From: a virus
IMG/VR virus record: IMGVR_UViG_3300035070_003385
Span: 62,001 to 126,000 of that record
Length of the DNA stretch: 64,000 nucleotides
Direction: 5' to 3' (one strand)
The translations under genes were made by a program, and so were the position numbers. Shown piece by piece: positions 41,219 through 58,575 of the stretch. How positions within the stretch are numbered: the first letter of the stretch is position 1; each line of letters opens with the position of its first letter. The notes under the pieces are model-generated. The model worked only from the letters and a program-made list of their open reading frames with translations, had not been told where the DNA came from and searched no databases.

Positions 41219-42514
41219 ATGATTTCGTTTAAAAAATATTTAAGAGAGAACAGTGAAATGCTTTTTGTGTCTCAGCAAGACAAGGCTAGATTTGATGCAG
41301 CCATTCAGCCATATACTTACACCGTAAAGAGTACAACAAATAACAAAACAGTATTGGTCGTTCGTTCTCAGAAAAATGATCGTGACTCTGTCAAGAAAAA
41401 TATAGAACAAAAATTAGATAAAGCAAACATAGATTACGAACTAAGCACATCCGGCGGGTCCGTCGGTTCTACTATCGTAAAGCTTGGATCTAAAAAGGTT
41501 CAAATTACATTTAAGCCAACGTCAGGGGGCATGTCAGAGACTACTCTTAATTCAACGATTACGGAGTTGGTTCCTTCTCTAGCATTTATGTCAAAGAAAA
41601 AGTTTTCAAACATAAACGACCTATATGATTTTATATCTGAAGCCGATGGAAACAAATATGGCGTATATGTAAATAGTAGAGACGCAGAAGCCGGTAAACA
41701 ATTTATCGAACAAATGCCAACGTCTTCAAAATATTCTGAAAAAATGGAAAACGCTTTAGCTATTTTAGACTATCTTAATGATTTAAACAAACAATCTCCT
41801 ATTCAACAAGTGTTTTGGGGTTATCGAGCGAAGCCAACCGGCATACCTGCGTCTCATAAAGGTGATTTATTCATCAAGTTTAAAAATAAAAATATGCTTG
41901 GCGTATCGCTTAAAGCTGGTGGTGAAAAAACCGCTGAACCTCAATTAAATACTTACGTGAATAAATTCTTTGATGATTTTTCGTATGCACGTGAAAAATC
42001 AGATCTACAGAAACTAATATTTAACAAAGTACATTCAAAACTTGGGTTACCTTTTGATTGGGACTCGAGAGGAAAGAAACGAAATTCAATTAAAATTATT
42101 ACAGAATTTAAGAAAAAGAATTCTAGAGAATACGAAAGTATGTACGACCAAATGCTTGATCTTATACGCGATGGTATTATAAGTGCAGTAAATAAGAATA
42201 AATCTAAAGCTATTGATTATATACAAAAACAAGTACTTAAAAAAGACAAAAACGTACCTTTAGTTGTCGTTAAAGCATTTGGTAATAAGTATAAAATGGT
42301 TACAGACGAAGATGATCTAGGAGCATTTTTGCCGAGGGTAAAAACTGTTAAAGCATATAAGTCTACCTCATCTAAACAAAATTGGTTTATTGAATTAAAC
42401 GCTGGTGGTAGCGAAAAGCTAACGATGAATATGTCAGTTCGTTCGAACAAATCTCCACCTGAAAATAAAATTGCTCAAGGTTTTAATCTTGCTATCAAAT
42501 TTAATGGAATTTAA
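41219..42514 (+). CDS. Probable internal capsid protein, 431 aa
   Basis: The N-terminus MISFKKYLRENSE fits the shared motif M-x-x-F-K-x-(F/Y)-(I/L)-x-E found in at least six other proteins of the window. It resembles the T4 capsid-targeting sequence cut by prohead protease gp21 after (I/L)xE. The remaining protein is large, basic and mixed alpha/beta, with LGVSLKAGGEKTAEPQLN near the middle, a pattern like a nuclease or restriction-like fold, but I do not recognise it. Late promoter, adjacent to the ligase-like gene with the same N-terminal motif. Confidence 0.6.
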   Translation: MISFKKYLRENSEMLFVSQQDKARFDAAIQPYTYTVKSTTNNKTVLVVRSQKNDRDSVKKNIEQKLDKANIDYELSTSGGSVGSTIVKLGSKKVQITFKPTSGGMSETTLNSTITELVPSLAFMSKKKFSNINDLYDFISEADGNKYGVYVNSRDAEAGKQFIEQMPTSSKYSEKMENALAILDYLNDLNKQSPIQQVFWGYRAKPTGIPASHKGDLFIKFKNKNMLGVSLKAGGEKTAEPQLNTYVNKFFDDFSYAREKSDLQKLIFNKVHSKLGLPFDWDSRGKKRNSIKIITEFKKKNSREYESMYDQMLDLIRDGIISAVNKNKSKAIDYIQKQVLKKDKNVPLVVVKAFGNKYKMVTDEDDLGAFLPRVKTVKAYKSTSSKQNWFIELNAGGSEKLTMNMSVRSNKSPPENKIAQGFNLAIKFNGI

Positions 42515-42517
42515 TAA

Positions 42518-43759
42518 ATGATTCGTTTTAAAAAGTTTTTGTCCGAAGAAAAGAACCTGCACATGACACATGCAGAAGATGCTGTTATTGATGGCGGCAT
42601 TGTTGGTACACGAAACGTAATAAACTATCTTCGTGATATTAGAGATATGCTAGCAGGTAATACTAAAGCACCCGTCAATATTAGCGTCAAGTGGGATGGC
42701 GCACCAGCAGTATTTGCTGGCATCGATCCAAGTGATGGAAAATTCTTTGTAGCTAAAAAAGGTATTTTTAATAAGAACCCAAAGCTATATAAAACACACG
42801 CCGATATTGATGCTGATACCGTGGGTAAGGCAGAGCTAAATGCAAAACTAAAAATTGCGTTAGATGAATTTTCAAAACTAGGAATTAAAGGTGTAGTACA
42901 AGGCGATTTTTTATATGAAAAAAGTGATATTAAAGAAGATACGATTGACGGTGAACCGCATATTACTTTCCATCCTAATACGATTGTTTATGCGATACCT
43001 AAATCATCAAAGCTTGCTAAAACAATACTCAGATCCAAGGTCGGAGTGGTCTGGCATACTGTATACCGAGGATCAAGCCTTGAAAAAATGTCTGCAAATT
43101 TTGGAAAGGAGATTGCAAGCGGCCTTAAAACAGTCCCGTCGGTCTGGTCAGTAGACGCAGTATTCAAAGATCAATCTGGCAATGCAACATTTACCGCAAA
43201 AGAGACTGCTGATATTACAAAAATAATATCTCAAATTGGTTCACTGCTTAAGACAATTCCAAAAAACACATTTGATGCTCTCAAGCCAGGATCTCAGTAT
43301 GATATTAATATGCGCCTCAATACTTACATCAATACAAAAGTTCGCGCCGGCGAAAGAATTGGTAATCCAAAAACTTTTGTTAAAGGCTTTCAGAAATACT
43401 TAAGTGATTATTACGATAAAGAAATTGATAGTAAAAAATCGCCAAAAGGTAAAGCAACCTGGCAAGCTAAAAAAGATAATGCCATGATGTTTTTCAAAAA
43501 AGTCAAACCGCGCGATCTTGAAAATTTATTTACTATGTATAACCTAATCGTTGACGCAAAGCATACAATTATTCGTAAACTTGAAAACGTTGATGGCTTA
43601 AAAACACTACTTAAAACCAATAAAGGCTATGAAGTTACAGGGCAAGAAGGTTTTGTTGCAATTGATCGTTATGGTAAGAATGCGTTAAAACTTGTTGACC
43701 GCTTACAATTTTCAGCTGCAAACTTTTCAGATAAATATATTAAGGGATGGCAAAAGTAA
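42518..43759 (+). CDS. Nucleotidyltransferase/ligase-like protein with capsid-targeting-type N-terminus
   Basis: 413 aa. Starts MIRFKKFLSEEKN, again ending in LSE. VSVKWDGAPAVFAGID-like NISVKWDGAPAVFAGIDPSD carries a KxDG motif as in covalent nucleotidyltransferases (DNA/RNA ligases, capping enzymes). GKFFVAKKGIF could be motif IIIa-like and GVVQGDFLYEKSDI motif III/IV-like. Downstream motif V is not clear. Homologous hypothetical proteins are common in cyanophages. If packaged, it would be delivered with the DNA. Confidence 0.65.
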   Translation: MIRFKKFLSEEKNLHMTHAEDAVIDGGIVGTRNVINYLRDIRDMLAGNTKAPVNISVKWDGAPAVFAGIDPSDGKFFVAKKGIFNKNPKLYKTHADIDADTVGKAELNAKLKIALDEFSKLGIKGVVQGDFLYEKSDIKEDTIDGEPHITFHPNTIVYAIPKSSKLAKTILRSKVGVVWHTVYRGSSLEKMSANFGKEIASGLKTVPSVWSVDAVFKDQSGNATFTAKETADITKIISQIGSLLKTIPKNTFDALKPGSQYDINMRLNTYINTKVRAGERIGNPKTFVKGFQKYLSDYYDKEIDSKKSPKGKATWQAKKDNAMMFFKKVKPRDLENLFTMYNLIVDAKHTIIRKLENVDGLKTLLKTNKGYEVTGQEGFVAIDRYGKNALKLVDRLQFSAANFSDKYIKGWQK

Positions 43760-44544
43760 TGGCTATTTGGAACAAATTAACTCAAGCGTATTTACAAAAT
43801 AATAAAACTTTATTTGAAGCATTTATTCTAGCAGATAAAGACGGCAATATTATCAACTCATTTGGAGTTGCATCTAATATTCCAATTGCTGCGGGCGACG
43901 TTGACGGTTATGACCATATTAACAAATTTGGCGCAACTGATGGAGACGTTACAGCTGGAACTATCTGGGACGGTAATTCAGCAGCAGTAACATATCCGTA
44001 CCCAGCTGCCGGTGTTGTAGCTGTAACTTCTACTCAAAACAGTGGCGCATCAGTTGAAATCCAAGGTCTTGACGCAGACTACGCACCACAAACAGTAACG
44101 ACTACTATTGGTGGAACAACCACTGAAACATTTTCACGAGTATTTAGAGCTCGTATGGTAGATACTAATAACGATGCAGATGTTACTATCAATCAAGGTG
44201 GCGCTTTAGCTGCAAAAATTCTTGAAGATAAAGGCCAAACTCTTATGGCTGTTTATACTGTGCCGGCAGGTAAAACGGCGTATCTAATCAAAACTCAAAT
44301 GGGTTCTGACAAAGCATCAACCAATGCCTCGTTACAATATACATTGTTTGCAAGACCTTTCGGTGGTACATTTAATGTTAAAGGTATTTCGTACGCTGCC
44401 GGCGGTCAAAATGTTATTGTAGAATATCCAGTACCATTAAAGTTTGAAGAAAAGACAGATATTAAAATTGATGTTGTTGCTGCATCGGGTGGTCAAACTT
44501 GTTCAGCAATGTTTGACCTTATATTGGTAGACAACCCGACATAA
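43759..44544 (+). CDS. Probable capsid decoration / virion structural protein
   Basis: 262 aa from ATG 43759, overlapping the previous stop by 1 base. Starts MAIWNKLTQAYLQNNKTLFE; the middle is a Gly/Thr/Val-rich beta region (VEIQGLDADYAPQTVTTTIG), followed by a strand-rich receptor-like or jelly-roll-like end (SAMFDLILVDNPT). Composition (few Cys, many Ala/Gly/Thr) and late context fit a head-surface protein. Related proteins are virion components of marine T4-like phages. Confidence 0.6.
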   Translation: MAIWNKLTQAYLQNNKTLFEAFILADKDGNIINSFGVASNIPIAAGDVDGYDHINKFGATDGDVTAGTIWDGNSAAVTYPYPAAGVVAVTSTQNSGASVEIQGLDADYAPQTVTTTIGGTTTETFSRVFRARMVDTNNDADVTINQGGALAAKILEDKGQTLMAVYTVPAGKTAYLIKTQMGSDKASTNASLQYTLFARPFGGTFNVKGISYAAGGQNVIVEYPVPLKFEEKTDIKIDVVAASGGQTCSAMFDLILVDNPT

Positions 44545-44620
44545 TGTCACGGTTGACACTAGTGAATACCGTCTATACCAAATTGGCAACCCAAATTAAG
44601 CCTTATTTTTACATTTCCTT

Positions 44621-44628
44621 AATAAATA
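44621..44628 (+). promoter_or_regulatory. T4-type late promoter, variant
   Basis: AATAAATA, one base off TATAAATA, 47 bp before the ATG at 44676. The 44545-44675 gap otherwise holds only a weak ACGGT/ACCGT inverted repeat. Confidence 0.45.
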
Positions 44629-44675
44629 TAATTGTAATTCAATAAAAACAATCATATGCGTTAAGGAGATGCAAC

Positions 44676-44963: not shown

Positions 44964-44964
44964 T

Positions 44965-45162: not shown

Positions 45163-45265
45163 TTTTATATTAAATAGTATTAGCGCATTTAATAACGCAG
45201 TTCTTGCCTCAAAATTGTGTGAACAAGGCTACATAGAAGAAGCAAGAAAAGTAATGCTAAGATAA
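45155..45265 (+). CDS. 36-aa helical peptide
   Basis: ATG at 45155, overlapping the previous gene. 36 residues, FILNSISAFNNAVLASKLCE and YIEEARKVMLR: two short helices similar to the N-terminal part of DUF1127 proteins. Likely a third member of the small-protein unit. Confidence 0.45.
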   Translation: MLNFILNSISAFNNAVLASKLCEQGYIEEARKVMLR

Positions 45266-45356: not shown

Positions 45357-45893
45357 ATGAAAGAATGGTTTGAAGGCAAGACCGTAGCGGTTGTAGGAAA
45401 TGCTGCATCTATCATACAACAGAAATATGGCGATGAAATAGATTCTGCGGATGTGGTTGTAAGAATCAATCGTGGTGGGTATCGGTTTCCTCAGTACAAA
45501 AAGCAGATGGGAACGCGTATTGATGTATGGTGTATGCAGAACATCCGACAGAACAAATCTCATTTTAACACTGCTCATAATAAAGGTGTTCTTAAAATGC
45601 AAATGGATACCGAAAGTGTATCTCCTAAATTTATAGAAATGGCCGATGTAGTGTTTTCTGAAGAGGATAGAATAGCTCTTGACAGCAACCTAACAAAGAA
45701 ATCCTCAACCGGGCTCAGAGTCCTCTATTACATTTCTAAACAGGATCCAAAGAGCGTACGCGTATATGGTTTTGATTGGAAAGAAACGTACTCTTGGCAC
45801 GAGAGAAGAAAGTGTGTTGCTCACGTTTTTAGCGAAGAAAAAGAATACTGCTTTAATAATTTTTTTAATAAACAATTCAAATTAAAGATTTAA
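45357..45893 (+). CDS. GT29-like (sialyltransferase-family) protein 1
   Basis: 178 aa. KTVAVVGNAASIIQQKYGDE, IDSADVVVRIN, SSTGLRVLYYIS and VRVYGFDWKETYSWH correspond to the sialyl-motif blocks of the GT29 family (VGNxxSL, D..VVRxN, STG, VYGFDW). Two paralogs lie at 53454 and 53960. Bacterial and phage members are small; the donor sugar is not known. Starts the glycan island behind a late promoter. Confidence 0.75.
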   Translation: MKEWFEGKTVAVVGNAASIIQQKYGDEIDSADVVVRINRGGYRFPQYKKQMGTRIDVWCMQNIRQNKSHFNTAHNKGVLKMQMDTESVSPKFIEMADVVFSEEDRIALDSNLTKKSSTGLRVLYYISKQDPKSVRVYGFDWKETYSWHERRKCVAHVFSEEKEYCFNNFFNKQFKLKI

Positions 45894-46949
45894 ATGAAGT
45901 TTTTTGTAGCATCCTCTTCTAAGGCGACCGCTTCTTTTGCGAGTAGAGCACAGTGCCCAAGAATAAAGTATTTTTCTAGGAATAGAGTCATTCCAAGACG
46001 CGTTGTCCCTGAGAACTACATGCATAGCTTTAACAATGCTGATGTTTTAATTTTAAATGGAACTTGGGGTTCAGAAATTAGAAAGAACGCATATCTAGAA
46101 GGATACTTAAACGGAGATTATACAGACGGTTACATACCAGATATAGAATACGAATGTGATAGTATACCACGTTTAAATAGATCAGCAACATTAGATTATA
46201 TTAACGTTGAGCTCTTGAGGATGGCAAATGAACAAAATAAACCCGTAGTCGTATTTGAAAGCTCTACAGTGTCAAGAGCAGAAGCAAACTATGAAACGAC
46301 GTTTAACATTAAGGATTACGCGAGAGTAGGATTATATAGCTGGATGCACGGTGATGGAAAGTGGCTTCATCCTGATGATTTCGAATCTCTTCAGATAGTA
46401 AAAGCCCCTCGTTTGTATAATCATATTTGGAAACACGATAAAGATAACGGTGCAATATATATCTTTACCGGTTTTGAAATGGATCCAACGGGCACAAAAC
46501 ACCCAAAGGATTTTTTATTAGAAACAGTAGAAACAATAAGAAACAAAACGAACCGAAGAATATGCATAAAGGTTCATCCTATGTCTAAATTACAAAATTA
46601 CGTTAAAGAACTATTAATTGAGTATAAAAACATTCATATCATTGGTAAAAACATTACAATGCAAAACCTTTATCATGATATGTATTGTGCAGTGATTGAT
46701 AATTCAACGAGTATATTTGAATTGATAGACGCAGGAATACCGACCTTTTGTTCAAAAATGAACTTTGGTTCAGAACTATTGAATACGAACATAGAAAATA
46801 TATGTGATCCGTATCTTGCTCCAAAAAAAGAAGTCTTGGACTGGACTGTAAGAATGTCTTGCACAGAACTTCATAAAGACATCATACTGTCAGATGATAT
46901 AGTAACATACGTAGAAAAGTTAGTAAGGAGACACTGGGATGGATTTTAA
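45894..46949 (+). CDS. GT-B-like glycosyltransferase (capsule-synthesis type) 1
   Basis: 351 aa. The C-terminal half has RRICIKVHPMSKLQNY and DMYCAVIDNSTSIFELIDAG then IPTFC, the nucleotide-sugar-binding pattern shared with capsule (KpsC/KpsS-like) transferases. The N-terminal half is variable, with an FVASSSKATASFAS start. Resembles 47499 and 49189 in the C-terminal domain. ATG adjacent to the GT29-like stop. Confidence 0.6.
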   Translation: MKFFVASSSKATASFASRAQCPRIKYFSRNRVIPRRVVPENYMHSFNNADVLILNGTWGSEIRKNAYLEGYLNGDYTDGYIPDIEYECDSIPRLNRSATLDYINVELLRMANEQNKPVVVFESSTVSRAEANYETTFNIKDYARVGLYSWMHGDGKWLHPDDFESLQIVKAPRLYNHIWKHDKDNGAIYIFTGFEMDPTGTKHPKDFLLETVETIRNKTNRRICIKVHPMSKLQNYVKELLIEYKNIHIIGKNITMQNLYHDMYCAVIDNSTSIFELIDAGIPTFCSKMNFGSELLNTNIENICDPYLAPKKEVLDWTVRMSCTELHKDIILSDDIVTYVEKLVRRHWDGF

Positions 46950-47502
46950 AGAGAATCAGCACGGAGGTGGAACAAACATTGACATAGAAGCGTTAAAATA
47001 TGCTATGAAAAAATGGAATGTAAATTCTATGATTGACATTGGTTGCGGCACGGGCGACCAAGTGTTCGAAGGAATAAAACTTGGTATAGATTCTTACGGT
47101 GTAGATGGTACACAATCAATACCAAATACCTCTAATTTTCAAAGAGTAGATTATCGTGTTGGAGCTTCAACGTTTGACAGAGAATTTGATTTAGGCTGGA
47201 GCGTGGAGTTTGTTGAACATATTGAAGAAGAATGCATACCTATTTTTATGAAAGATTTTCAGAAATGCAAGAGAGTTATATTAACAGCGGCTCCTCCTTT
47301 TTGGGGTGGTAAGAACCACGTAAACGAACAATCAGAAATATATTGGATTGATGTGTTCCAAAAATATGGTTTTAAAATAAATATTGAAGAGTCTTTGCTT
47401 TTAAGAAAGGCGTCTATAACGCTAATGAATAATAAAATAAGACCTCCACGACAACAATTTGTGTCAATAAGAGGTCTCGTATTTGAAATAAATAATAAAT
47501 GA
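46939..47502 (+). CDS. Class I SAM-dependent methyltransferase
   Basis: 187 aa. SMIDIGCGTGDQVFEG is motif I (SAM binding), SYGVDGTQS motif II and GWSVEFVEHIEEEC the motif following beta strand 4. Ends in a PPRQQF segment. In this island it probably methylates a sugar or glycan. Overlaps the previous gene by 11 nt and the next by 4. Confidence 0.8.
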   Translation: MDFKENQHGGGTNIDIEALKYAMKKWNVNSMIDIGCGTGDQVFEGIKLGIDSYGVDGTQSIPNTSNFQRVDYRVGASTFDREFDLGWSVEFVEHIEEECIPIFMKDFQKCKRVILTAAPPFWGGKNHVNEQSEIYWIDVFQKYGFKINIEESLLLRKASITLMNNKIRPPRQQFVSIRGLVFEINNK

Positions 47503-48404
47503 AAAGTACGATATTTTATAATACCTTAAAATCAAATAGAGTTGATAATAGGTTTAACGCGATTGCTAACGCATTTCCTAACTGTAACATTGTAAGAGGT
47601 TACGAAGGTGTTCAGGATTGCGATATTGCAATTATACAAGGGTGGTCAAAGAAAAAAGGTAAAGGCGCACACAATCTTTTACGAAAGCTAGTTATCGAAA
47701 CCCAGTTAGAAAAAAACAAAAACATTCTCACAATAGATGGAAATATATTTAATTATTTGTCAAAAGGCATATATTTTAGATATAGTTTAAATGGGATTTA
47801 TGCAAACACTGGATATTATTTTGATAATACAATAGATCCTAATAGGTGGAAAAAAATAAAAAGCACAATAGGATTTGATTTAAAAAGTTGGAGACAAGAA
47901 GGCGAACATATTCTTATATTATTACAAAAAGATTCTGGGTGGACAATGGAAGAAAAAAGTAACATATCATGGTGTTCTGAAACTATAAATAAAATAAGAA
48001 AATATACGGATAGGCCAATTGTAATAAGAATGCATCCGTCTGATGTAAAACACAAAGAAAATTATTTAATGATGGCGCGGAATAAAAAAGTAACTTTATC
48101 TGAAAATAAAAACATTATGCAAGATTTAAAAAATGCATGGTGTTCAATATCACACAACAGCTCTCCAGGCGCTGTGAGTGTATTAGAAGGTATACCAGTT
48201 TTTATAACTGATAAAGATTGGCAGAAAAGCCCTGCAGGACTTGTTGGTAATTATGACATGTCTAAAATAGAAAATCCCGTTTTACCAAATAGAGAATCTT
48301 GGGTACAAAAACTTGCTATGTCTCATTTTAGTATTGAAGATATTAAAAAAGGTCTATTATGGGAAAGCATAAACGAATATTTTTATAGGTGTAAACAAAA
48401 ATGA
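47499..48404 (+). CDS. GT-B-like glycosyltransferase (capsule-synthesis type) 2
   Basis: 301 aa. KYTDRPIVIRMHPSDVKHKE and LKNAWCSISHNSSPGAVSVL then EGIPVFITD form the conserved C-terminal domain, the best match of the three such proteins to the pattern with Ser/Asn-Ser-Ser loop and Glu-Gly-Ile-Pro. N-terminal part binds acceptor. Overlap of 4 nt on both sides. Confidence 0.6.
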   Translation: MKSTIFYNTLKSNRVDNRFNAIANAFPNCNIVRGYEGVQDCDIAIIQGWSKKKGKGAHNLLRKLVIETQLEKNKNILTIDGNIFNYLSKGIYFRYSLNGIYANTGYYFDNTIDPNRWKKIKSTIGFDLKSWRQEGEHILILLQKDSGWTMEEKSNISWCSETINKIRKYTDRPIVIRMHPSDVKHKENYLMMARNKKVTLSENKNIMQDLKNAWCSISHNSSPGAVSVLEGIPVFITDKDWQKSPAGLVGNYDMSKIENPVLPNRESWVQKLAMSHFSIEDIKKGLLWESINEYFYRCKQK

Positions 48405-49192
48405 AAACAATTAGCGCAGTTACGTGTTTCAATCTTCAAGGATGGAGAGAAACTGGTGGTCTTTTAGTACAAGGGTTTATAAAAAATTGGCCTGATGACG
48501 TGTCACTAACTGTTTATGTTGACAATCCAATTCCAAAAAAAGATTTAATAAGAGATCCAAGAGTTTCGTATAAAATATTAAATTATAAAGATCTTATTTC
48601 CTTTAAGGATAGACATAAAAACAATCCTGAAGCAAATGGATTGGGAAAATATGCTTCGAAAGGAGCTTCAAATTATCGCTATAACGCTGTGCGATTTAGT
48701 CATAAAGTATTTGCTCTTTTTCAATTTTTACAAGAAAATAAAACTGATATTTTAATATGGTTAGATGGAGATAGCAGAACACATTCACCAGTTAAAAGAA
48801 GTGACATATCAAATTGGTGCCCAGAAGGAAAGTTTGCAGGATATCTTGCCCGCCCTTGGATGTATACTGAAACCGGATTTCACATCTTTAATATGAATCA
48901 TGACATTGCTAAAGACTTTTTAAATGCATGGAAACAATATTATTTAGATGACAGTATTTTTAAATTAGAGTTTTGGACTGATTGTCATACATATGACGCG
49001 GCAATGCAAAACTTTAATCAAATACATTGGCATAACCTAAGCCCGCAAATTAAAAACAACCATCCTTTCATCAACGGGCCTCTTGGAGAATTTATGGATC
49101 ATATGAAAGGTCCAAGAAAACAAAAAGGAACTAGTCATAAAAAAGATCTTGTTGTTCAAAGAAAAACTTCGTATTGGAATAACGTAAAATGA
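48401..49192 (+). CDS. GT-A-type glycosyltransferase
   Basis: 263 aa. AVTCFNLQGWRETGG at the N-terminus, ILIWLDGDSRTHSPV with a DxD-type metal site (DGD), and later GFHIFNMNHDIAKDFLNAW and LEFWTDCHTYDAAM. Typical layout of small nucleotide-diphospho-sugar transferases of the island type in phage and bacterial capsule loci. Donor unknown. Overlaps neighbours by 4 nt. Confidence 0.65.
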   Translation: MKTISAVTCFNLQGWRETGGLLVQGFIKNWPDDVSLTVYVDNPIPKKDLIRDPRVSYKILNYKDLISFKDRHKNNPEANGLGKYASKGASNYRYNAVRFSHKVFALFQFLQENKTDILIWLDGDSRTHSPVKRSDISNWCPEGKFAGYLARPWMYTETGFHIFNMNHDIAKDFLNAWKQYYLDDSIFKLEFWTDCHTYDAAMQNFNQIHWHNLSPQIKNNHPFINGPLGEFMDHMKGPRKQKGTSHKKDLVVQRKTSYWNNVK

Positions 49193-50073: not shown

Positions 50074-50075
50074 CA

Positions 50076-51236
50076 ATGAAATATAAATTAGCAAGTGATA
50101 CCTGGGGTGATGAAGAAGTTAACGCTATTCATCGAGTAATCTCAAGTGGTAAGTACACGATGGGTGAAGAAGTAAAGAAATACGAAAACCAATTTGCCGA
50201 ATTTTTTGGAAGCAAGCATGCTGTTATGACAAATAGCGGAAGTAGTGCTAATCTTATTACTATATCAGCTCTCGCATTAAATCCAAAATATAAAAATAAA
50301 GGGAATATTATTGTACCGGCCGTAAGCTGGAGCACAACTTATTTTCCAATACACCAATTAGGTTATACTATTCGATTTGTTGATGTTGACCCATATACGT
50401 TTAACATAGATCCTAGTAAAGTAGAGGCAGCTATTGATGAAAACACGGCGGCTGTTTTTGTTGTAAACCTTTTAGGTAATCCAGCAGAACTCAACAAAAT
50501 TAAAGAGATATGTGATAAGCGAAACATTACCTTATTAGAAGATAATTGCGAAAGCTTAGGTGCATTAGAATACAATAAGCACTGCGGATCTGTTGGAGAA
50601 ATGGGTACCTTTAGTTTTTTCTTTAGCCACCACATGCAAACTATGGAAGGCGGAATGGTTCTTACTAATGACGATACCACCTATGAATATTTAAAGAGCC
50701 TACGAGCTCACGGGTGGATAAGAGATAGCACTTCAGATGATCCTTTGTTTGCAAAATCCGGTGATCCATTTGAAGACAGTTTCAAGTTTATATTACCCGG
50801 GTATTGTGTAAGACCACTCGAAATGAGTGGTGCTATTGGCCAAGAGCAATTAAAAAAATGGCCGCAGATGATGATAGATCGAAGAAAGAATGCTGAAATC
50901 GCAAAAAAGGTTTTTGCAGATGTTCCTAATATAAGATTACAAGATGAACACGAAAAAAGCAGTTGGTTTGGTTTTGGACTAGTTCTTGAAGGTGATTTAG
51001 CCGGAAAAAGAAAAATGGTAATTGAAGAGCTCACGAAAAACGGTGTTGAAACACGCCCTATCGTAGCAGGAAACTTTATGCGCAATCCTGTAATAGACCG
51101 ATTAAATTGGGATAGTGTTGGAGATTTTACTGGAACTGATAAATTACATTTTGATGGTTTTTTTATTGGTAACGATTGTGTAGATCTTTCTGATAATATA
51201 CAAATGGCAGCAAATGTAATAAGGAATATAAAATGA
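50076..51236 (+). CDS. colD: GDP-4-keto-6-deoxy-D-mannose 3-dehydratase (ColD-like)
   Basis: 386 aa from ATG 50076 (GGAAA upstream; an in-frame ATG at 50058 overlaps the previous gene). A PLP protein of the DegT/DnrJ family in which the Schiff-base Lys is His: FSFFFSHHMQTMEGGMV. This His for Lys exchange defines ColD, which removes the 3-hydroxyl to give 3,6-dideoxy sugars. LASDTWGDEEVNAIHRV, YTMGEEVKKYE and VPAVSWSTTYFPI closely follow E. coli ColD. The substrate would come from Gmd, the next gene. Confidence 0.9.
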   Translation: MKYKLASDTWGDEEVNAIHRVISSGKYTMGEEVKKYENQFAEFFGSKHAVMTNSGSSANLITISALALNPKYKNKGNIIVPAVSWSTTYFPIHQLGYTIRFVDVDPYTFNIDPSKVEAAIDENTAAVFVVNLLGNPAELNKIKEICDKRNITLLEDNCESLGALEYNKHCGSVGEMGTFSFFFSHHMQTMEGGMVLTNDDTTYEYLKSLRAHGWIRDSTSDDPLFAKSGDPFEDSFKFILPGYCVRPLEMSGAIGQEQLKKWPQMMIDRRKNAEIAKKVFADVPNIRLQDEHEKSSWFGFGLVLEGDLAGKRKMVIEELTKNGVETRPIVAGNFMRNPVIDRLNWDSVGDFTGTDKLHFDGFFIGNDCVDLSDNIQMAANVIRNIK

Positions 51237-52234
51237 AAACTGCTTTAATTACTGGTTTCCCAGGACAAGACGCATGCTATCTTGCCGACCTTCTTTTAGG
51301 AAAAGGTTATAATGTATATGGATTAGTAAAAAGATATACAAGCCCAAATTGGTCAAACATCGAATATTTAAATTTATTTGAAAAAGGTCTTAAAACTGTT
51401 ATTGGGGATGTCACCGACCTGTGTAGTATCATGGATGTAATGGAAATAGCAAAACCTGATGAATTTTATAATCTTGCAGCTCAAAGCTTTGTTGGTGGTT
51501 CATGGAGATTACCTTATGTAACTACTCATGTTGATGCTATCGGACCACTTAATTGTCTTGAAGCTATACGACGAATCAAACCTAACACTAAATTTTATCA
51601 GGCTGGCACAAGTGAAATGTTTGGTAACAGCAACATAGACGGAAGACAAACAGAAAATACACCGTTTGAACCTGCGAGCCCGTATGGAATAGCAAAATTG
51701 TATGGTTACCATATAACAAAAAATTACCGTGAAAGTTATGACGCGTTTGCGTGTACTGGTATACTTTTTAATCATGAATCTTCGATACGCGGTATTGAAT
51801 TTGTTTCAAGAAAAATCACAGACGGCGTAGCAAAAATATCATTAGGTAAATCTGATAAAATTGTATTAGGAAATCTTGATGCCGAAAGAGACTGGGGCCA
51901 TGCTAAAGATTATGTAAAAGCCCAATGGCTTATGCTTCAAGAAGACAAACCTGAAGATTTTATTATTGCAACTGGTATTAAACACAGTGTGCGTGATCTA
52001 TGTAAAATAGCTTTTGAAACTGTAGGAATATCAAATTGGGAACAATATGTCAAATCCGATGAAGAATTTCAAAGGCCAAACGAATTACACAGTTTACACG
52101 CTGATTCAAATAAAGCAAAGAATACATTAAATTGGGAACCGGAATATACATTTGAAAAAATGATATCTGAAATGGTTGAAGATGATATATCTAGACATAA
52201 AATTTTAAATGTTGGCGGTACTTTTAAATTATGA
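51233..52234 (+). CDS. gmd: GDP-mannose 4,6-dehydratase
   Basis: 333 aa. ALITGFPGQDACYLADLLLG is the NADP-binding start, EFYNLAAQSFVGGSW and YQAGTSEMFGNS precede the catalytic SPYGIAK (YxxxK). Usual motif PxxxSPYAxAK is present as FEPASPYGIAK. It makes GDP-4-keto-6-deoxymannose, the ColD substrate. Together with the phosphomannomutase at 12165 it supports a GDP-mannose-derived deoxysugar route. Confidence 0.9.
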   Translation: MKTALITGFPGQDACYLADLLLGKGYNVYGLVKRYTSPNWSNIEYLNLFEKGLKTVIGDVTDLCSIMDVMEIAKPDEFYNLAAQSFVGGSWRLPYVTTHVDAIGPLNCLEAIRRIKPNTKFYQAGTSEMFGNSNIDGRQTENTPFEPASPYGIAKLYGYHITKNYRESYDAFACTGILFNHESSIRGIEFVSRKITDGVAKISLGKSDKIVLGNLDAERDWGHAKDYVKAQWLMLQEDKPEDFIIATGIKHSVRDLCKIAFETVGISNWEQYVKSDEEFQRPNELHSLHADSNKAKNTLNWEPEYTFEKMISEMVEDDISRHKILNVGGTFKL

Positions 52235-52770
52235 AAATAGTAATCACTGGCCATACGAGTGGTCTTGGAAAAACATTGTATGAAACCTTTTCAAAAAATC
52301 ATGAAGTCGTAGGATTGAGTCGAGCAACTGGTAATGATTTAAATGATGGTGTTAATTCTTTTTTAATAAATGATTTTGATTTATATATTAATAATGCGCA
52401 TTGTAAATACTTTCAAACAGATCTTTTATATGAATTGTTTAAAAAAAATAAATATAGAGAGTGCACAATACTTAATATTGGAAGTGTAAGTGCTGACGGT
52501 AATAAAGACACAGTTAACGAATATGCCATTTATAAATCCTCTCTTGAAAAGGCATGTTCGCAGCTGCAGCTTATTGACACTGATTGCAAAATAATTCATA
52601 TGAAGCTAGGAAGAATGAATACTCCTATGACTGAGCACAGAAAAGAATATCCTAGGATGGGAACCGATTACATAACTAATATTATCGAATGGATTGTGAA
52701 TCAGCCAAAAGAAATAATAATAAAAAATTTGACATTAGATATAATGCACAGTAGAAGGAAACTTGTATAA
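52231..52770 (+). CDS. Short-chain dehydrogenase/reductase
   Basis: 179 aa, short for the family. VITGHTSGLGKTLYE is the TGxxxGxG cofactor motif, DLYINNAH the NNA motif, and NEYAIYKSSLEKA the YxxxK active site. After ColD a ketoreductase is needed to reach GDP-colitose or a related dideoxy sugar, and this could be it, although the known ColC is a larger epimerase/reductase. Coupled on both sides by short overlaps. Confidence 0.8.
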   Translation: MKIVITGHTSGLGKTLYETFSKNHEVVGLSRATGNDLNDGVNSFLINDFDLYINNAHCKYFQTDLLYELFKKNKYRECTILNIGSVSADGNKDTVNEYAIYKSSLEKACSQLQLIDTDCKIIHMKLGRMNTPMTEHRKEYPRMGTDYITNIIEWIVNQPKEIIIKNLTLDIMHSRRKLV

Positions 52771-53447
52771 TGATACCAATTTTTATGGGATACGATAAAA
52801 GAGAAGCAACTGCGTATCATGTTTGTGCTAACTCTATTATTCGTCATGCAACATCCCCAATAAGTTTAAATCCTTTATCACTTAATCTCTTAAATGGTTA
52901 CGAAGAAAAACATTCTGATGGCAGTAATCATTTTATATATAGTCGATTTCTTATTCCACATTTAATGGAATATAAAGGCTGGGCAATTTTTATTGACGGG
53001 GATATGATATTACGTGATGACATATCAAAGCTTTGGGAAATGCGAGACGAATCAAAAGCAGTCATGGTAGTAAAGCATGACTATAAAACTAAAACAGCTA
53101 AAAAATATTTAGGATCAAAAAACGAAGATTACCCTCGAAAAAATTGGTCAAGTGTAATTTTATGGAACTGTGAACATCCTGAAAATAGAATTGTTACTAC
53201 AGATTTTGTTTCAAATGCAACTGGCGCACAAGTTCACAGATTTACATGGTTAGAAGATAATTTAATTGGTGAATTGCCTATTGAATGGAATTGGCTGCCA
53301 GACGAATTTGGTCCAAATAAAAATGCTAAACTATTACATTACACTTTAGGTACTCCGTGTTTTCACGACTTTGCAACAACGTCTATGGCAGATGAATGGC
53401 ACCGCGAAAGAATATATATGGATTACAGTCAACAATACGGATTATGA
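52770..53447 (+). CDS. GT8-like glycosyltransferase
   Basis: 225 aa. IPIFMGYDKREATAYHVCAN at the N-terminus, GWAIFIDGDMILRDDISKLW with the DxD-type motif, and LLHYTLGTPCFHDF near the C-terminus, matching the layout of GT8/stealth-like alpha-transferases (HYT for the second metal ligand). Donor sugar unknown. Confidence 0.75.
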   Translation: MIPIFMGYDKREATAYHVCANSIIRHATSPISLNPLSLNLLNGYEEKHSDGSNHFIYSRFLIPHLMEYKGWAIFIDGDMILRDDISKLWEMRDESKAVMVVKHDYKTKTAKKYLGSKNEDYPRKNWSSVILWNCEHPENRIVTTDFVSNATGAQVHRFTWLEDNLIGELPIEWNWLPDEFGPNKNAKLLHYTLGTPCFHDFATTSMADEWHRERIYMDYSQQYGL

Positions 53448-53453
53448 TATATT

Positions 53454-53963
53454 ATGAAAGAAGTATTTGAAGGTAAAACAGTTTCTGTTGTTGGCAATGC
53501 AAGAAGTTTGTTTAATAAAAAATACGGAAATGAAATAGATTCTGCAGATGTAGTTTGTAGGATTAAAAGAGGGTTTTTTCTACTCAAACCATCTGATATT
53601 ATTTCACATGGTGCAAAAACGAATGTTTGGTTTTTAAACTGGTTTAAAACAATGAATCCGAACAAAGTAACCAATAAAAAATGTGATAATATTATTGAAA
53701 TTTTACATCATCCTGAAATAAATAAAGAGTGGTTAGTAAAAGATTTAGGCCACCACCGCCCGTCAACTGGGTTAAGAATATTACATTTAATATCTTTATA
53801 TAACCCAAAGACTGTAAATGTTTACGGTTTTGATTGGAAAGAAACCCCATCGTTTCATGATAAAAAAATGATTGATGAAAGACATAATTTTGCCTTAGAA
53901 AAAGATTATTGTAATAGGCGGTTTTTTGAAAAACAAAAAGAGGTTTTTAAATTAAGAAAATGA
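53454..53963 (+). CDS. GT29-like (sialyltransferase-family) protein 2
   Basis: 169 aa. KTVSVVGNARSLFNKKYGNE, IDSADVVCRIKRG, RPSTGLRILHLIS and VNVYGFDWKETPSFHD are the same blocks as in the paralog at 45357. The VVRIN Asn is Lys here (CRIKRG). 7 bp from the previous gene, 4-nt overlap with the third copy. Confidence 0.75.
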   Translation: MKEVFEGKTVSVVGNARSLFNKKYGNEIDSADVVCRIKRGFFLLKPSDIISHGAKTNVWFLNWFKTMNPNKVTNKKCDNIIEILHHPEINKEWLVKDLGHHRPSTGLRILHLISLYNPKTVNVYGFDWKETPSFHDKKMIDERHNFALEKDYCNRRFFEKQKEVFKLRK

Positions 53964-54520
53964 AAGAATGGTTTGAAGAAAAAACTGTTGCTGTAGTTGG
54001 AAACTCTATGGGACTGTTCAGTAAAAAATATGGAAACGAAATTGATTCGCACGACGTTGTAGTACGCTTAAATAAGGCGGCTATGTTATACACGAGAATG
54101 AATGTTCCGCTGAGTCATGGAAGTAAAAGTGACATTTGGGTGTTTTGGAATACTTCCGAATATAAGTTATTCTTTGAAAAAATACCAAAACATGTTAAAA
54201 AAATGCATGCGGGTCATCAGGCCAGGACTCCTAGTAATCTTAGCAAAGTAGATTTTGTGTACCCAGATTCTTTATATAAACACTTGAAGTTAAAATCAGG
54301 TAAACATAAAAATCCTACAACAGGTTTAATTACATTAGATTATATATCAACGTGCAATCCAAAAAGTGTTACCGTTTATGGGTTTGATTGGAAAGAAACC
54401 GCAACGTTTACAGATCCAGAAAGGAAAAGAGAACGTGGATGTCCGCATGATTATCCTGTAGAAAAGGAATATTGTATGACAACATTTTTTTCGAAGAATA
54501 ACTTTACTTTAAAAATCTAA
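53960..54520 (+). CDS. GT29-like (sialyltransferase-family) protein 3
   Basis: 186 aa. KTVAVVGNSMGLFSKKYGNE, IDSHDVVVRLNKA, NPTTGLITLDYIS and VTVYGFDWKETATF give the same four blocks. The N-terminus MKEWFEEKTVAVVGN is nearly that of the first copy. Tandem with the second; the third is 8.6 kb away, at the other edge of the island. Last gene of the island. Confidence 0.75.
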   Translation: MKEWFEEKTVAVVGNSMGLFSKKYGNEIDSHDVVVRLNKAAMLYTRMNVPLSHGSKSDIWVFWNTSEYKLFFEKIPKHVKKMHAGHQARTPSNLSKVDFVYPDSLYKHLKLKSGKHKNPTTGLITLDYISTCNPKSVTVYGFDWKETATFTDPERKRERGCPHDYPVEKEYCMTTFFSKNNFTLKI

Positions 54521-54532: not shown

Positions 54533-54540
54533 TATAAATA
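54533..54540 (+). promoter_or_regulatory. T4-type late promoter
   Basis: Perfect TATAAATA 32 bp before the ATG at 54572, heading a late unit that includes several putative head-packaged proteins. Confidence 0.65.
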
Positions 54541-54571: not shown

Positions 54572-56860
54572 ATGGTTGAGAAGAAAAAAAATAAAAAAGA
54601 TCTTAAAAAAATAAAAGATCATAATCCTAGTGATTATATTGAAACAAAGCCAACTATGTCCGAGGCTTTGAAGAAAACTGTGGTTATAACTTTTGGTAGG
54701 TTTAACCCTATTACAGTTGGACACGAAAAATTAATAAACAAAGTAATAACAGAAGCTGTAAAGCGCAAGGCTGATGCTGCAGTTTATATGTCACATTCTC
54801 AAGATTCAAAAAAGAACCCTATGAGTTATAATCAAAAAATATCTCTTGGGCAAAAAGCTTTTGGCGGAATTGTAAAAAAATCACCAGCAAAAACAATCAT
54901 TGAAGTAGCTAAAGAATTATCTAAAAAATATAATAATTTTGTACTTGTTGTTGGGTCTGATAGAGTTAAAGAATTTGAAGTTCTTTTGAAAAAATATAAT
55001 GAATTAGATTATACTTTTGAAAATATCGAAATAGTTTCTGCTGGTGAAAGAGATCCTGATTCTGACGGCGTGTCCGGAATGTCAGCATCAAAGATGCGAC
55101 AGTCAGCTGCAAAAGGAAATATTGTTTCTTTTAAACAGGGGTTGCCTAAAAAGTTAAAAATATCCGCAGTGTCTATAATGAACATGGTTCGTAAAGGTAT
55201 GAATATTACAGAAGAACTTGAAGAGCAAAATCTTTCAGAAAGAGAACCGCTTTCAATTCAACAAAGACGTAAAAAAGCTTTGGTAATGAGAAAGTATAAA
55301 ACAAAAATAAAAATGGCTCGTGAAAGATCCAAAAGAAAAATGGCCCCAAAAGAAAAGTTATTAAAAAGATCTAGAAAAGCAGCTCTTAATTTTATGAAAG
55401 ATAGATTATCTAAAAATAAAAAGTATTCTCAAATGTCTACCGCAGAAAAAATTACTTTAGATAGAAGATTGCAAAAAATTCCTGGCAAAACAATAGATCG
55501 TATTGCGTCTCGTCTTTTACCTAAAGTTAGAGCCGCCGAAAAAGAACGTCTTGCTGGTGTTTTAAATCCAAAAAAGAATGAAGATGTTTATGATATAAAC
55601 AATATGTTTGAACTATTTTTAGAATCAAAATCAATAAAACCTCAAGATCCTGATGTAAAAGATATGCCTGGTTCACAGCCAAAGGGTTATTACAAAGGTG
55701 TTGAAAAAGATAAAAAAGATGATAGAGCTAGACATTTTGCCAAGTACGGTAAAATGGACGATGATAATCCTGATGCATATAAACCAGCACCTGGTGATAA
55801 AGAAGCTAAAACAAAACCGTCTGTTCATACAAAAAAATTTAAAGATATGTTTGGCGAAGCTATACACGCTGATATACCAATTCGCAAAAGACCGCATATG
55901 GCTTTAGAAAAAAACGGCTCTGTTAAATTTGACAAGCGGTTTAAAATATTCAAGCCAAAAGAAGACACTGTAAGTGAAACCTACGAGGACTTTGGCGAAG
56001 ATATATCAAAACTTATTTCTGGTATGAGTGATTTTATTATGTCTGAAGAATTTGATGTTTTAATGGAATCAAATCCAAAAGCAGCACTTAAGAAAAAAGC
56101 AGAAAAAACCGGAATATCATATGGTATATTAAAAACAGTTTTTGATAGGGGGGTCGCTGCCTGGAGAACAGGTCATCGCCCAGGAACAAACCCAACACAA
56201 TGGGGGTTTGCCAGAGTTAATTCGTTTGCTACCAAAGGTAAAGGAACCTGGGGAAAAGCAGACAAAGACTTAGCTGACAAAGTTAGAAAGGAACAGTTTG
56301 ATTTGGCAACAGGACAAGAGCAACTCTTAAACCTTGATGAACAAATTATGCTAAATAAAATTCTTGAAAAAATACATAATCATATTTTAAATGGCGAAAA
56401 ATTAAAAGACGTAATTGAAGAAATTGAAACTCTTGCGAATATTGGAATTCCAGGGCGCCGTCTAGAAACAGAATATTTTAAAAAATATAATAACGAGCAT
56501 GCAGATCTTACACAAAATGAAGACACTGAAAGTTTATTAAAAAGAAATCAACTTCTTAAAAAATATGGATATAAAGTTGAGGCAAAAGACGAAAAAGATT
56601 CTCCATCGAAAAGAGAATACGGTACTGATGCTTTAACAAAAAAATATAAAGAAGATACTCCAGGGCAAGAAATTGAAGAAGCAGCATTAAATGCAAATAT
56701 ATACCGTGGTGATGTAATAAAGTTTATGCATACTTATGTGACTGGCGAAAAAGATGAATTAGAAGGAACCCTTGTAGGAACCGATTCAGAAACAGGGCGC
56801 GCAAAAATAAGAACAGGGGACGGTAAATTGTATATCGTAAAACACGATGAAATCATTTAA
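54572..56860 (+). CDS. Large mosaic protein with N-terminal nucleotidyltransferase domain
   Basis: 762 aa. Residues about 30-200: VVITFGRFNPITVGHEKLIN (HxGH motif) and GMSASKMRQSA (ISSTxxR-like) mark an adenylyl/cytidylyltransferase. Then a Lys/Arg-rich helical region (about 210-340), a segment PKGYYKGVEKDKKDDRARHF and PSVHTKKFKDMFGE, a GISYGILKTVFDRGVAAWRT domain common in cyanophage proteins, and a C-terminal helical part. Several (I/L)xE sites (for example NLSE, ELEE) would permit prohead protease cutting into separate parts. Late promoter. Overlaps the next gene by 14 nt. Confidence 0.6.
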   Translation: MVEKKKNKKDLKKIKDHNPSDYIETKPTMSEALKKTVVITFGRFNPITVGHEKLINKVITEAVKRKADAAVYMSHSQDSKKNPMSYNQKISLGQKAFGGIVKKSPAKTIIEVAKELSKKYNNFVLVVGSDRVKEFEVLLKKYNELDYTFENIEIVSAGERDPDSDGVSGMSASKMRQSAAKGNIVSFKQGLPKKLKISAVSIMNMVRKGMNITEELEEQNLSEREPLSIQQRRKKALVMRKYKTKIKMARERSKRKMAPKEKLLKRSRKAALNFMKDRLSKNKKYSQMSTAEKITLDRRLQKIPGKTIDRIASRLLPKVRAAEKERLAGVLNPKKNEDVYDINNMFELFLESKSIKPQDPDVKDMPGSQPKGYYKGVEKDKKDDRARHFAKYGKMDDDNPDAYKPAPGDKEAKTKPSVHTKKFKDMFGEAIHADIPIRKRPHMALEKNGSVKFDKRFKIFKPKEDTVSETYEDFGEDISKLISGMSDFIMSEEFDVLMESNPKAALKKKAEKTGISYGILKTVFDRGVAAWRTGHRPGTNPTQWGFARVNSFATKGKGTWGKADKDLADKVRKEQFDLATGQEQLLNLDEQIMLNKILEKIHNHILNGEKLKDVIEEIETLANIGIPGRRLETEYFKKYNNEHADLTQNEDTESLLKRNQLLKKYGYKVEAKDEKDSPSKREYGTDALTKKYKEDTPGQEIEEAALNANIYRGDVIKFMHTYVTGEKDELEGTLVGTDSETGRAKIRTGDGKLYIVKHDEII

Positions 56861-57152
56861 ACAACATATAAAAAATACTCCAAATTTAAAAGAGCAACAT
56901 TCAAACTGTGGTACTCAACAGTGTTGTGGTAAATGCAGCACTGCAGTTACAGAAGGCTCAGAAACTTGGGAAGCTGGTTATAAGCGTAGAGTAGTCAAAA
57001 CTACAAAACCAGAGCACAAAGAAAAAGGTATGAATTGGAGAATTAAAGGTAAAGACCGTCCTGAAATTTCCATTAAATTGTATAAAGAAAAACCTTCCCA
57101 GGAAGAATTCAACAAACAAATGAAACGTGTTGCAGGACACGAGTTCGGATGA
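56847..57152 (+). CDS. Small protein with capsid-targeting-type N-terminus, 101 aa
   Basis: Starts MKSFKQHIKNTPNLKEQHSN; the motif is MKSFKQH with LKE following somewhat later. A Cys cluster CGTQQCCGKC comes next (possible zinc site), then a basic C-terminal domain. Overlaps the previous gene by 14 nt and the HD-domain gene by 4. Family unknown. Confidence 0.6.
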   Translation: MKSFKQHIKNTPNLKEQHSNCGTQQCCGKCSTAVTEGSETWEAGYKRRVVKTTKPEHKEKGMNWRIKGKDRPEISIKLYKEKPSQEEFNKQMKRVAGHEFG

Positions 57153-57715
57153 AAAGATTTAAGCAATACATATCAGAAGAAACAGAAACACTTAATGAAA
57201 GCGCACTTAAAGCTTTACGGGTTGCTACTAAAGCCCATTCAGGACAGACACGTAAAAGCGGTGGTAAATATATTGAGCATCCAAAAGAAGTTGCTCGGTT
57301 CGTACAAAAGTTTAAAAAATCAAACAATCTTTCGGCGTTAGTACAGGCGGCTTATCTACACGATACTATTGAAGATACTGATACAACATATGATGATTTG
57401 GTTAAACAGTTTGGTGCTCTTATAGCTGATATGGTTCAGGAATTAACAACTGATAAAGCTGCATCTGATGCAATTGGTAAAGGTGAATATATTGCCAATA
57501 AGATGGCTAAAATGTCAAGTTGGTCATTAGTTATTAAACTCGCAGATAGATTAGCAAACGTACAAGACATTGATACACGGCCTGCAGATTTTCAAAAGAA
57601 ATATGCTGCACAGACTGCGCTTGCTATTAAACGTCTTCGTAGTGATAGATATTTAAGTAAAACACATAATAAAATCATATCAGCTATTGAGAAAAAAATT
57701 AAAGAATATGTATAG
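57149..57715 (+). CDS. HD-domain (p)ppGpp hydrolase-like (MESH1/SpoT type) with capsid-targeting-type N-terminus
   Basis: 188 aa. After MKRFKQYISEETETLNES comes the single-domain hydrolase: AHSGQTRKSGGKYIEHPKEV, AAYLHDTIEDTDTTYDDLV and LVIKLADRLANVQDI, with His, HD, ED and the distal Asp all present. This is the RelA/SpoT hydrolase signature; no synthetase or regulatory domain follows. Expected to degrade (p)ppGpp or a related nucleotide. The N-terminal MKRFKQYISE matches six other proteins here and would be removed after ISE by a gp21-type protease if packaged. Confidence 0.85.
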   Translation: MKRFKQYISEETETLNESALKALRVATKAHSGQTRKSGGKYIEHPKEVARFVQKFKKSNNLSALVQAAYLHDTIEDTDTTYDDLVKQFGALIADMVQELTTDKAASDAIGKGEYIANKMAKMSSWSLVIKLADRLANVQDIDTRPADFQKKYAAQTALAIKRLRSDRYLSKTHNKIISAIEKKIKEYV

Positions 57716-58001
57716 TTTCAAACAATATATTTCCGAAGGTATCATGGTTAAACTGATTCGTGGTAAAGGCCAGGATACTTTAAAAATGAGAGACACTAAA
57801 GAAAAAAGTTGGGTTGAATTACGAGGTAAACCTAATTTTGAAACTAAATATGATAAAAGAGATCCATTACATAAAGCAATTACAGCATTAGGTAAATCGG
57901 CAAATATATCTGATTTTATGAACGGTGATGAAGTCAGTATTAATCCAAACCATCCTGACGGTAAAAAGGCATTGGCAGCAATGAAGAAGTTAATGAAATG
58001 A
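57708..58001 (+). CDS. Small protein with capsid-targeting-type N-terminus, 97 aa
   Basis: ATG 57708 overlaps the previous stop by 8 nt; upstream in-frame codons would hide the motif. Begins MYSFKQYISEGIMVKLIRGK. The mature part is basic and ends with a helical GKKALAAMKKLMK. Related sequences are seen in other marine T4-like phages; function unknown. Confidence 0.6.
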   Translation: MYSFKQYISEGIMVKLIRGKGQDTLKMRDTKEKSWVELRGKPNFETKYDKRDPLHKAITALGKSANISDFMNGDEVSINPNHPDGKKALAAMKKLMK

Positions 58002-58306
58002 AAAATTTTAAAAAATTCTTAGAAGAAAAAGATCCTCGATTGGCGAAGGCTGGAGTGGATGGTTATAATAAACCAAAAAGAACTCCTAGTCATCCTACTA
58101 AAAGTCATATTGTCGTTGCTAAAGACGGTAATAAAATTAAAACTATTAGATTTGGTGAGCAAGGCGCATCCACTGCCGGTGATCCAAAAAAAGGTGAATC
58201 TGATAGAATGAAGGCTAAGAGAAAATCGTTTAAAGCACGCCATGCTAAAAATATCGCTAAAGGTAAAATGTCTGGGGCATATTGGGCAGATAAAGAAAAG
58301 TGGTAA
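57998..58306 (+). CDS. Small basic protein with capsid-targeting-type N-terminus, 102 aa
   Basis: Begins MKNFKKFLEEKDPRLAKAGV. The remainder is Lys/Arg/Gly-rich (RTPSHPTKSHIVVAKDGNKI; KKGESDRMKAKRKSFKARHA), as expected for an internal DNA-associated head protein. A widely conserved hypothetical family in cyanophage-type myoviruses. 4-nt overlap with the previous gene. Confidence 0.65.
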   Translation: MKNFKKFLEEKDPRLAKAGVDGYNKPKRTPSHPTKSHIVVAKDGNKIKTIRFGEQGASTAGDPKKGESDRMKAKRKSFKARHAKNIAKGKMSGAYWADKEKW

Positions 58307-58315
58307 TTTAAATTT

Positions 58316-58323
58316 GATAAATA
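58316..58323 (+). promoter_or_regulatory. T4-type late promoter, variant
   Basis: GATAAATA 33 bp before the ATG at 58357. Confidence 0.5.
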
Positions 58324-58356
58324 TTAACAGTAATCAGGAACAAAGGTCTAAAACAA

Positions 58357-58575
58357 ATGAAAAGTTTTAAGCAATTTACACTTAATGAAAAAGTCAAGGT
58401 TGAATGCCCTAAATGTGATGGTGCTGGCTGTGATCATTGTGACGGTAAAGGTTATCACGCCGAACCTGAGCTTAACGAGTTATCCGCCGAAGAAAAAAAA
58501 CTTGTTAATCAAATGTACGATAAAAAGGGTAACTTAACACCACTTGGTAAAAAAGTTATGAACTATAATAAATAA
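58357..58575 (+). CDS. Zinc-knuckle protein with capsid-targeting-type N-terminus, 72 aa
   Basis: Begins MKSFKQFTLNEKVKVECPKC. CPKCDGAGCDHCDGKGY is a DnaJ-like CxxC...CxxC zinc motif, then an acidic helical part. The LNE after the FKQF motif fits the (I/L)xE cut. Preceded by its own late-promoter variant. Role unknown. Confidence 0.6.
   Translation: MKSFKQFTLNEKVKVECPKCDGAGCDHCDGKGYHAEPELNELSAEEKKLVNQMYDKKGNLTPLGKKVMNYNK

Follow-up and report, generated by a model that had tools for sequence, protein, structure and literature searches.

Unrelated proteins that share a T4-like N-terminal tag are probable head-packaged, injected cargo in a virus genome with a T4-type head cluster

Why should seven proteins of one virus, otherwise unrelated, begin with nearly the same ten residues? 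The question is raised by positions 41219 to 58575 of the window, a stretch of 64,000 nucleotides that corresponds to bases 62001-126000 of virus record IMGVR_UViG_3300035070_003385 (182,738 bases in all). A preliminary description of this DNA likened the shared start to the capsid-targeting sequence of the T4 internal protein IPIII and proposed that the proteins are delivered with the phage DNA. Our analysis favors this answer: with a probability of roughly 80%, these open reading frames (ORFs) encode head-packaged cargo that carries a T4-type capsid-targeting sequence, is trimmed by the prohead protease, and is injected. The T4-type reading is supported by the match of critical positions, by a gp21-family protease in the record, by the unrelatedness of the tagged families, by the virion proteomes of relatives, and by avoidance of the protease site. 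Packaging is thus well supported by inference, and cutting, packaging, and injection in this phage are what we infer. The first 10 to 16 residues would bind the prohead core, a gp21-type protease would then cut after (I/L)xE and so free the mature protein amid the DNA, and the mature protein would enter the next host cell along with the genome. Of the seven putative cargo proteins, one is a predicted polynucleotide ligase, one resembles the hydrolase MESH1, and five have no assigned function; an eighth tagged protein, whose gene belongs to the head cluster and which has many (I/L)xEA sites, would be a part of the core that is itself cleaved into fragments.

All seven ORFs with the N-termini originally listed were recovered, each on the plus strand. 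They are 41219..42514 (431 aa, MISFKKYLRE, phrog_2496), 42518..43759 (413 aa, MIRFKKFLSE, DUF6267), 56847..57152 (101 aa, with the weak or long-form tag MKSFKQHIKNTPNLKE), 57149..57715 (188 aa, MKRFKQYISE, HD hydrolase), 57708..58001 (97 aa, MYSFKQYISE, in a sequence cluster of 5), 57998..58306 (102 aa, MKNFKKFLEE, phrog_7595, in a cluster of 12 tagged members), and 58357..58575 (72 aa, MKSFKQFTLNE). The start at 57708 is an internal ATG, with an alternative start of the same ORF at 57687. The motif M-x-x-F-K-(K/Q)-(F/Y)-(I/L)-x-E, said to be common to all with H also allowed at position 7, is exact in five ORFs, whereas that of 58357 is one residue longer and that of 56847 is weak. Aromatic residues occupy positions 4 and 7 in strict register in the five, with F4/F7 in 58357 and F4/H7 in 56847. 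The (I/L)xE site falls within residues 8-11 in six of the seven; in 56847 it lies at residues 14-16, and MKSFKQHIKNTPNLKE matches only if the site is allowed there, as in T4 IPI (MKTFKEFTSTTTPVSTITE).

Ten residues of IPIII are enough for packaging in T4, mutagenesis of this protein assigned control of targeting to residues 4 and 7 and of processing to residues 8 and 10, gp21 cleaves after L/I-x-E, and the tag acts via the prohead core (PMC9026906). The positions that recur in the window (aromatic residues at 4 and 7, I/L at 8, and E at 10) are the mutationally mapped ones.

The frequency of the motif was compared with chance for the 254 non-overlapping ORFs of the record, with residues 2-30 shuffled 1000 times. 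The pattern M.{1,3}[FY]K.{2,6}[IL].E matched 7 of the 254 ORFs, whereas the shuffled sequences gave 0.30 matches on average and never more than 3. These matches, six of which are at the called start, comprise six of the seven ORFs described above and one ORF of the head cluster. A looser pattern gave 7 matches in the same genome, where shuffling yielded 4.1 on average and up to 10, and this lack of a clear excess indicates that the FK core and its spacing matter. For comparison among phages, we adopted a strict pattern (aromatic residue at 4; hydrophobic, aromatic, or H at 7; hydrophobic at 8; E at 10), set before the virion proteomes were consulted and sought at any Met up to 15 residues (relatives' loci) or 25 residues (phage genomes) from the first start; four strict hits in short, antisense, or alternative-start ORFs of the record itself were left uncounted.

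Among 160 IMG/VR loci, half of them recruited through gp21 and half through DUF6267 (80 each) and all related rather than independent, the motif was present at 193 of 4792 early Mets (4.0%) versus 19 of 12291 internal Mets (0.15%). The suggested motif search of related genomes thus revealed enrichment at early Mets, and the families concerned are many and unrelated. When the motif was written as a 30-base DNA pattern and applied to 21 hand-chosen phage records including T4, it gave 69 matches, a few of which are not gene starts, compared with 5 for the reversed motif as a control, and 20 of the 21 records had at least one match. Codons differ between tags, so that selection acts on the protein. 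In T4 the strict pattern returned three matches only, IPII, IPIII, and gene 61.1; it misses IPI because the cut site of this protein lies farther on. Gene 61.1 (NC_000866, 18966-19130, minus strand) encodes 54 aa beginning MKTFKEFIKED, and judged by this start its product may be an unrecognized internal protein. Further predicted cargo was seen in phage S-CRM01 (NC_015569), namely the acetyltransferase SCRM01_185 (139045, plus strand; MKTFDEFLTE) and the cytidyltransferase SCRM01_127c (100704, minus strand; MKLFNQFFKE).

The record also encodes a T4-type head cluster on the opposite strand, with Portal_T4, a Peptidase_S77 prohead protease of the gp21 family (E 4.7e-35), scaffold, and Gp23. Between portal and protease, outside the window at 163779-165458 (minus strand) of the record, lies a 559-aa ORF that begins MKTFKNLIAE, close to the T4 IPII/IPIII tag MKTYQEFIAE, and gp21 loci of relatives often have a similar tagged ORF before the protease. 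Among gp23 proteins of relatives, LxE[ATS] was found in 40 of 40 distinct N-terminal segments, just before P-T-N in the 12 that were printed, and the protease of this phage is presumed to have LxE specificity. In the family of the head-cluster tagged ORF, 5.8 (I/L)xE sites were observed versus 3.6 expected (ratio of 1.6, compared with 1.34 for background), and (L/I)xEA occurred 3.5 times per 1000 residues versus 1.0 in background. The product of this ORF is likely a core protein that is cleaved into many fragments. Its richness in (I/L)xEA, like that of the cut-up core proteins of T4, together with the action of the T4 tag through the core, would also fit a different account of the whole set, in which the motif binds the prohead core and the proteins serve head assembly as parts of the scaffold or core, to be degraded or expelled as the head matures rather than injected.

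Mature cargo that meets the protease should be free of further (I/L)xE sites. We examined this property in 18 multi-member tagged families and in length-matched untagged genes, with the expectation derived from composition. Singletons were excluded, as were the core and gp23 families, a family that is antisense, and a further family with two members. The observed/expected ratio was 0.72 for the tagged families versus 1.27 ± 0.17 for untagged genes (P 3e-4), with 13 of the 18 families below expectation. Replacement of E by D, K, or Q in the searched site revealed no avoidance (1.13-1.23 for tagged and 1.10-1.13 for untagged genes). That cargo families as a set avoid the site argues against their being scaffold, as do the presence of enzyme-like proteins with whole domains among them and the detection of tagged enzymes in finished virions, and we regard the scaffold account as unlikely. 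The motif might instead be an N-terminal handle for another role, such as membrane or host-factor binding, with its likeness to T4 convergent; it is short, and the loose pattern does not clearly exceed chance in this genome. Such a handle is nevertheless very improbable, given the selection on protein that the varying codons imply, the retention of (I/L)xE at the tag together with its avoidance downstream, and the return by the strict pattern of two of the three T4 internal proteins and just one other gene.

Injected cargo with a T4-type tag should be detectable in virions, and we scored the strict pattern against the proteomes of the cyanophages S-CREM2, S-SM1, and S-SCSM1. The gene totals used for S-SM1 (234) and S-SCSM1 (about 270) are estimates from record sizes, and strict hits that fell within another gene or antisense to one (one, three, and one for S-CREM2, S-SM1, and S-SCSM1, respectively) were left out. 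For S-CREM2, 52 of 219 proteins were found in virions (PMC10665884). Four annotated starts in this phage carry the strict tag, and all four products were detected (P 0.003 for this phage alone): a SAM hydrolase (Pfam S-AdoMet_lyase), an APH/ChoK-like kinase with a GTG start, a cytidylyltransferase, and the hypothetical protein ORF136. The strict tag was present in no undetected annotated gene. For S-SM1, scored from the main text (the complete list of 41 proteins is in Table S8; PMC3037559), the sole strict hit not antisense to a gene is T4-GC190, which begins MKKFSAFLNE and is named as detected in virions. For S-SCSM1, one of two strict-tag genes is marked as a virion protein, that for an NMNAT-like protein beginning MKSFLQFLKE (database record; PMC9602691); the record, without its first 4,999 bases, marks 48 such genes, and the paper states 45 (PMC9602691). 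For the three proteomes together, 6 of 7 strict-tag genes were detected, with 1.5 expected (P of at least 6 of 7, 4.5e-4). A separate observation concerns the S-CREM2 virion protein annotated as Cas9 (ORF12; OR473000, 7704-10313, minus strand), which contains LRFASFMAE at residues 17-25 but was not counted as tagged, L17 being encoded by CTG; a Pfam search of this protein at E 0.001 yielded no match.

Several observations weigh against reading the tag as a mark of injected cargo. The virion data come from three relatives and none from this phage. Three of the six detected genes encode related cytidylyltransferases, so that the seven genes are not independent and the joint P value is too small. 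The looser pattern that was tried first also matches four undetected S-CREM2 genes (gp30, gp32, gp35, and gp175), SSCSM1_30 (MKTFKQFMSE) has the strict tag and is not marked as a virion protein, and the virion proteins SSCSM1_90 and SSCSM1_92 have no tag, which means that the tag is neither necessary nor the only route. The seven tagged ORFs of this genome, too few on their own, show no avoidance of (I/L)xE (8 observed, about 7.2 expected), and 56847 is a weak member of the set. In 18 of 83 loci DUF6267 lacks a tag-like start, and it is untagged in S-SM1; moreover, 35 of 74 complete homologues of the HD protein have the strict form, with others shortened or lacking the E. In addition, the authors of the S-CREM2 study caution that highly expressed proteins may copurify with virions (PMC10665884), and the tagged proteins in these preparations could accordingly be abundant late contaminants on which the tag is incidental. 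Contamination alone, however, would not favor one start motif, and detection of six of seven tagged genes rather than 1.5 leaves this the least probable of the alternatives. With these points weighed, we still prefer the view that the tagged proteins are packaged and injected.

Some of the cargo appears to be enzymatic. ORF 42518 matches Pfam DUF6267 (E 1.5e-104), in which E10, K58, D60, G61, E377, G378, and K391 are invariant among 44 aligned sequences. Polynucleotide ligases are characterized by a KxDG motif I followed by later EG and K motifs. The structure model of this protein had a pLDDT of 84, with residues 1-14, which include the tag, unstructured and below 50 and the remainder predicted well, and all 50 of the matches listed by VIA-align were RNA or DNA ligases. 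The best match among those listed was 6vt1_A, with a middling Z score of 8.8 (182 aligned residues, rmsd of 3.6). The sequence profile yielded no match at E up to 1 among PDB sequences, including those of solved ligases, and a literature search for the term DUF6267 found no paper. On the basis of the model and the invariant residues, we predict that DUF6267 is an ATP-dependent polynucleotide ligase. ORF 57149 matches HD_4 (E 2.4e-16) and 22 PDB sequences at E ≤ 1e-3, the best of which, 3nr1 (E 1.4e-16) and 5vxa, are both MESH1 and most of the others RelA/SpoT-type or alarmone hydrolases; it is predicted to be a MESH1-like HD hydrolase, nearest to the small alarmone hydrolases. The family phrog_220, "minor head protein and DNA pilot", is matched weakly by ORF 57998 (E 1.8e-4). 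Residues 23-128 of ORF 41219 align with the virion protein SSCSM1_90 (hhalign probability of 88, E 2.9e-6, 104 columns; blastp E 0.004). Matches of the poor ORF 41219 model (pLDDT of 65) within residues 1-107, mostly nucleotidyltransferase-like with Z up to 8.2, were in the chance range. The assertion that enzymes are included thus appears to apply to the predicted ligase and the MESH1-like hydrolase, whereas the others have no assigned function.

The tag behaves as a module that genes gain and lose. With a wider pattern, 163 loci and this record together yielded 270 tagged proteins in 55 sequence clusters, 22 of them multi-member and some of the singletons antisense noise; the description of the tagged proteins as otherwise unrelated thus extends to many families across the phage group. 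Of 83 loci with DUF6267, 65 show a tag-like start of this gene. The gene directly before it occupies a hypervariable slot, whose occupants in 80 loci fall into 19 sequence clusters; 60 of the 80 begin in a tag-like manner. Eight of 10 slot proteins had no Pfam match at E 0.05, and the slot also holds HAD-type and Zeta-type kinase members. A loose, nuclease-like D...(S/E)xK signature, made by eye, was present in 10 of 19 slot representatives versus 16.5% of background ORFs; the idea that all slot genes encode PD-(D/E)XK nucleases was not retained, with a tighter signature in just 3 of the 19 versus 5.1% of background. A cytidylyltransferase is tagged in S-SM1, S-SCSM1, and S-CREM2, and in phage C48C1 if its start lies 22 codons before the annotated one. 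In the window, ORF 54572..56860 (plus strand, 762 aa), with a cytidylyltransferase/NMNAT-like domain and DUF5824, is untagged, and its relatives in S-SM1 and S-SCSM1 are tagged virion proteins. As a code for listing cargo throughout the phage group, the tag is therefore over-represented in virions of relatives but marks only part of the packaged set.

The tagged ORFs are arranged in two codirectional runs, 41219-43759 and 54572-58575, between a DnaB-like helicase (39499) and a primase (62948). In S-SCSM1, genes 89-93, 95, and 97, all marked as virion proteins, are situated between helicase/primase gene 81 and primase gene 99. SSCSM1_91 shares 44% identity with ORF 54572 over 183 residues, SSCSM1_92 matches part of the same ORF, and phrog_26159 is common to SSCSM1_95 and window ORF 58605. 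The tagged genes had been described as mostly under late promoters. A T4-type late promoter core, TATAAATA, does head each run, at 41180..41187 and 54533..54540 (plus strand), beginning 39 bp before ORFs 41219 and 54572, respectively, but no other tagged gene of the runs has its own site. The same core begins ahead of gp23 (by 38 bp), gp22 (51 bp), gp21 (33 bp), and the head-cluster tagged ORF (38 bp), and occurs 42 times in the record, 31 of them within 150 bp before a same-strand ORF (raw counts, without a chance control). The block between the runs includes an aminotransferase and a nucleotide-sugar epimerase. Three similar proteins of about 180 aa encoded within 45357-54520, at 45357, 53454, and 53960, begin MKE(W/V)FE.KTV.VVGN, and the two of them scanned against PHROG had no match.

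If the tag is what it seems, some of the proteins packaged by many marine phages can be predicted from sequence, and what these phages inject can be tested directly; site avoidance in cargo would offer a further means, independent of the tag, of finding packaged proteins. Enzymes in cyanophage virions have been puzzling, with contamination left possible by the S-CREM2 authors, and a readable tag may explain several of them. We also offer, tentatively and at somewhat less than even odds, the broader proposal that marine, Kyanoviridae-like relatives of T4 carry a swappable kit of injected first-response enzymes against fast host defenses, in which a ten-residue tag makes a protein into cargo. 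In such a kit, the NMNAT-like cytidylyltransferase would restore NAD+, the MESH1-like hydrolase would remove alarmones or tRNA pyrophosphates, the polynucleotide ligase would reseal DNA or tRNA, the SAM hydrolase would counter restriction, and one slot beside the ligase would be hypervariable. T4 IPI, IPII, and IPIII block type IV restriction (PMC12373910), and by analogy with them the kinds of enzymes suggest that the set may blunt host defenses.

Among known systems, the closest is that of the T-even internal proteins, which were discovered through their signal (PMC12373910). Like T4 IPI, IPII, and IPIII, the proteins described here have an N-terminal propeptide of 10-19 residues with aromatic residues at 4 and 7, I/L at 8, and E at 10, and, as in T4, they are accompanied by a gp21-family protease and by an LxE site in gp23. 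The cargo outnumbers the T4 internal proteins and differs from them in having enzyme-like members (ligase fold, MESH1-like HD hydrolase), and the nearest named DUF6267 relatives are mostly from Kyanoviridae and other marine phages rather than from T-even phages. T4 Alt, a packaged ADP-ribosyltransferase, is likewise an enzyme whose propeptide is cut by gp21 (PMC9026906), but its start, MELITELFDE, does not fit the strict pattern, and Pfam and PHROG scans of the seven ORFs found no ADP-ribosyltransferase. DarB of phage P1 is also sent to the head by N-terminal residues, with a longer signal of 30 residues (PMC9024508). No extension of the T4 targeting sequence to marine T4-like phages was found in the literature searched, which lacked most subscription papers, and the consulted sections of the S-CREM2, S-SM1, and S-SCSM1 virion papers do not mention a targeting signal for the enzymes concerned. 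The virions of these cyanophages provide a parallel for the cargo itself, since mass spectrometry detected in them a SAM hydrolase, a kinase, and cytidylyltransferases that are tagged. The packaging mechanism is already known from T4; if our reading is correct, a targeting code described, in the literature consulted, for T-even phages reaches marine relatives with enzymatic cargo as well.

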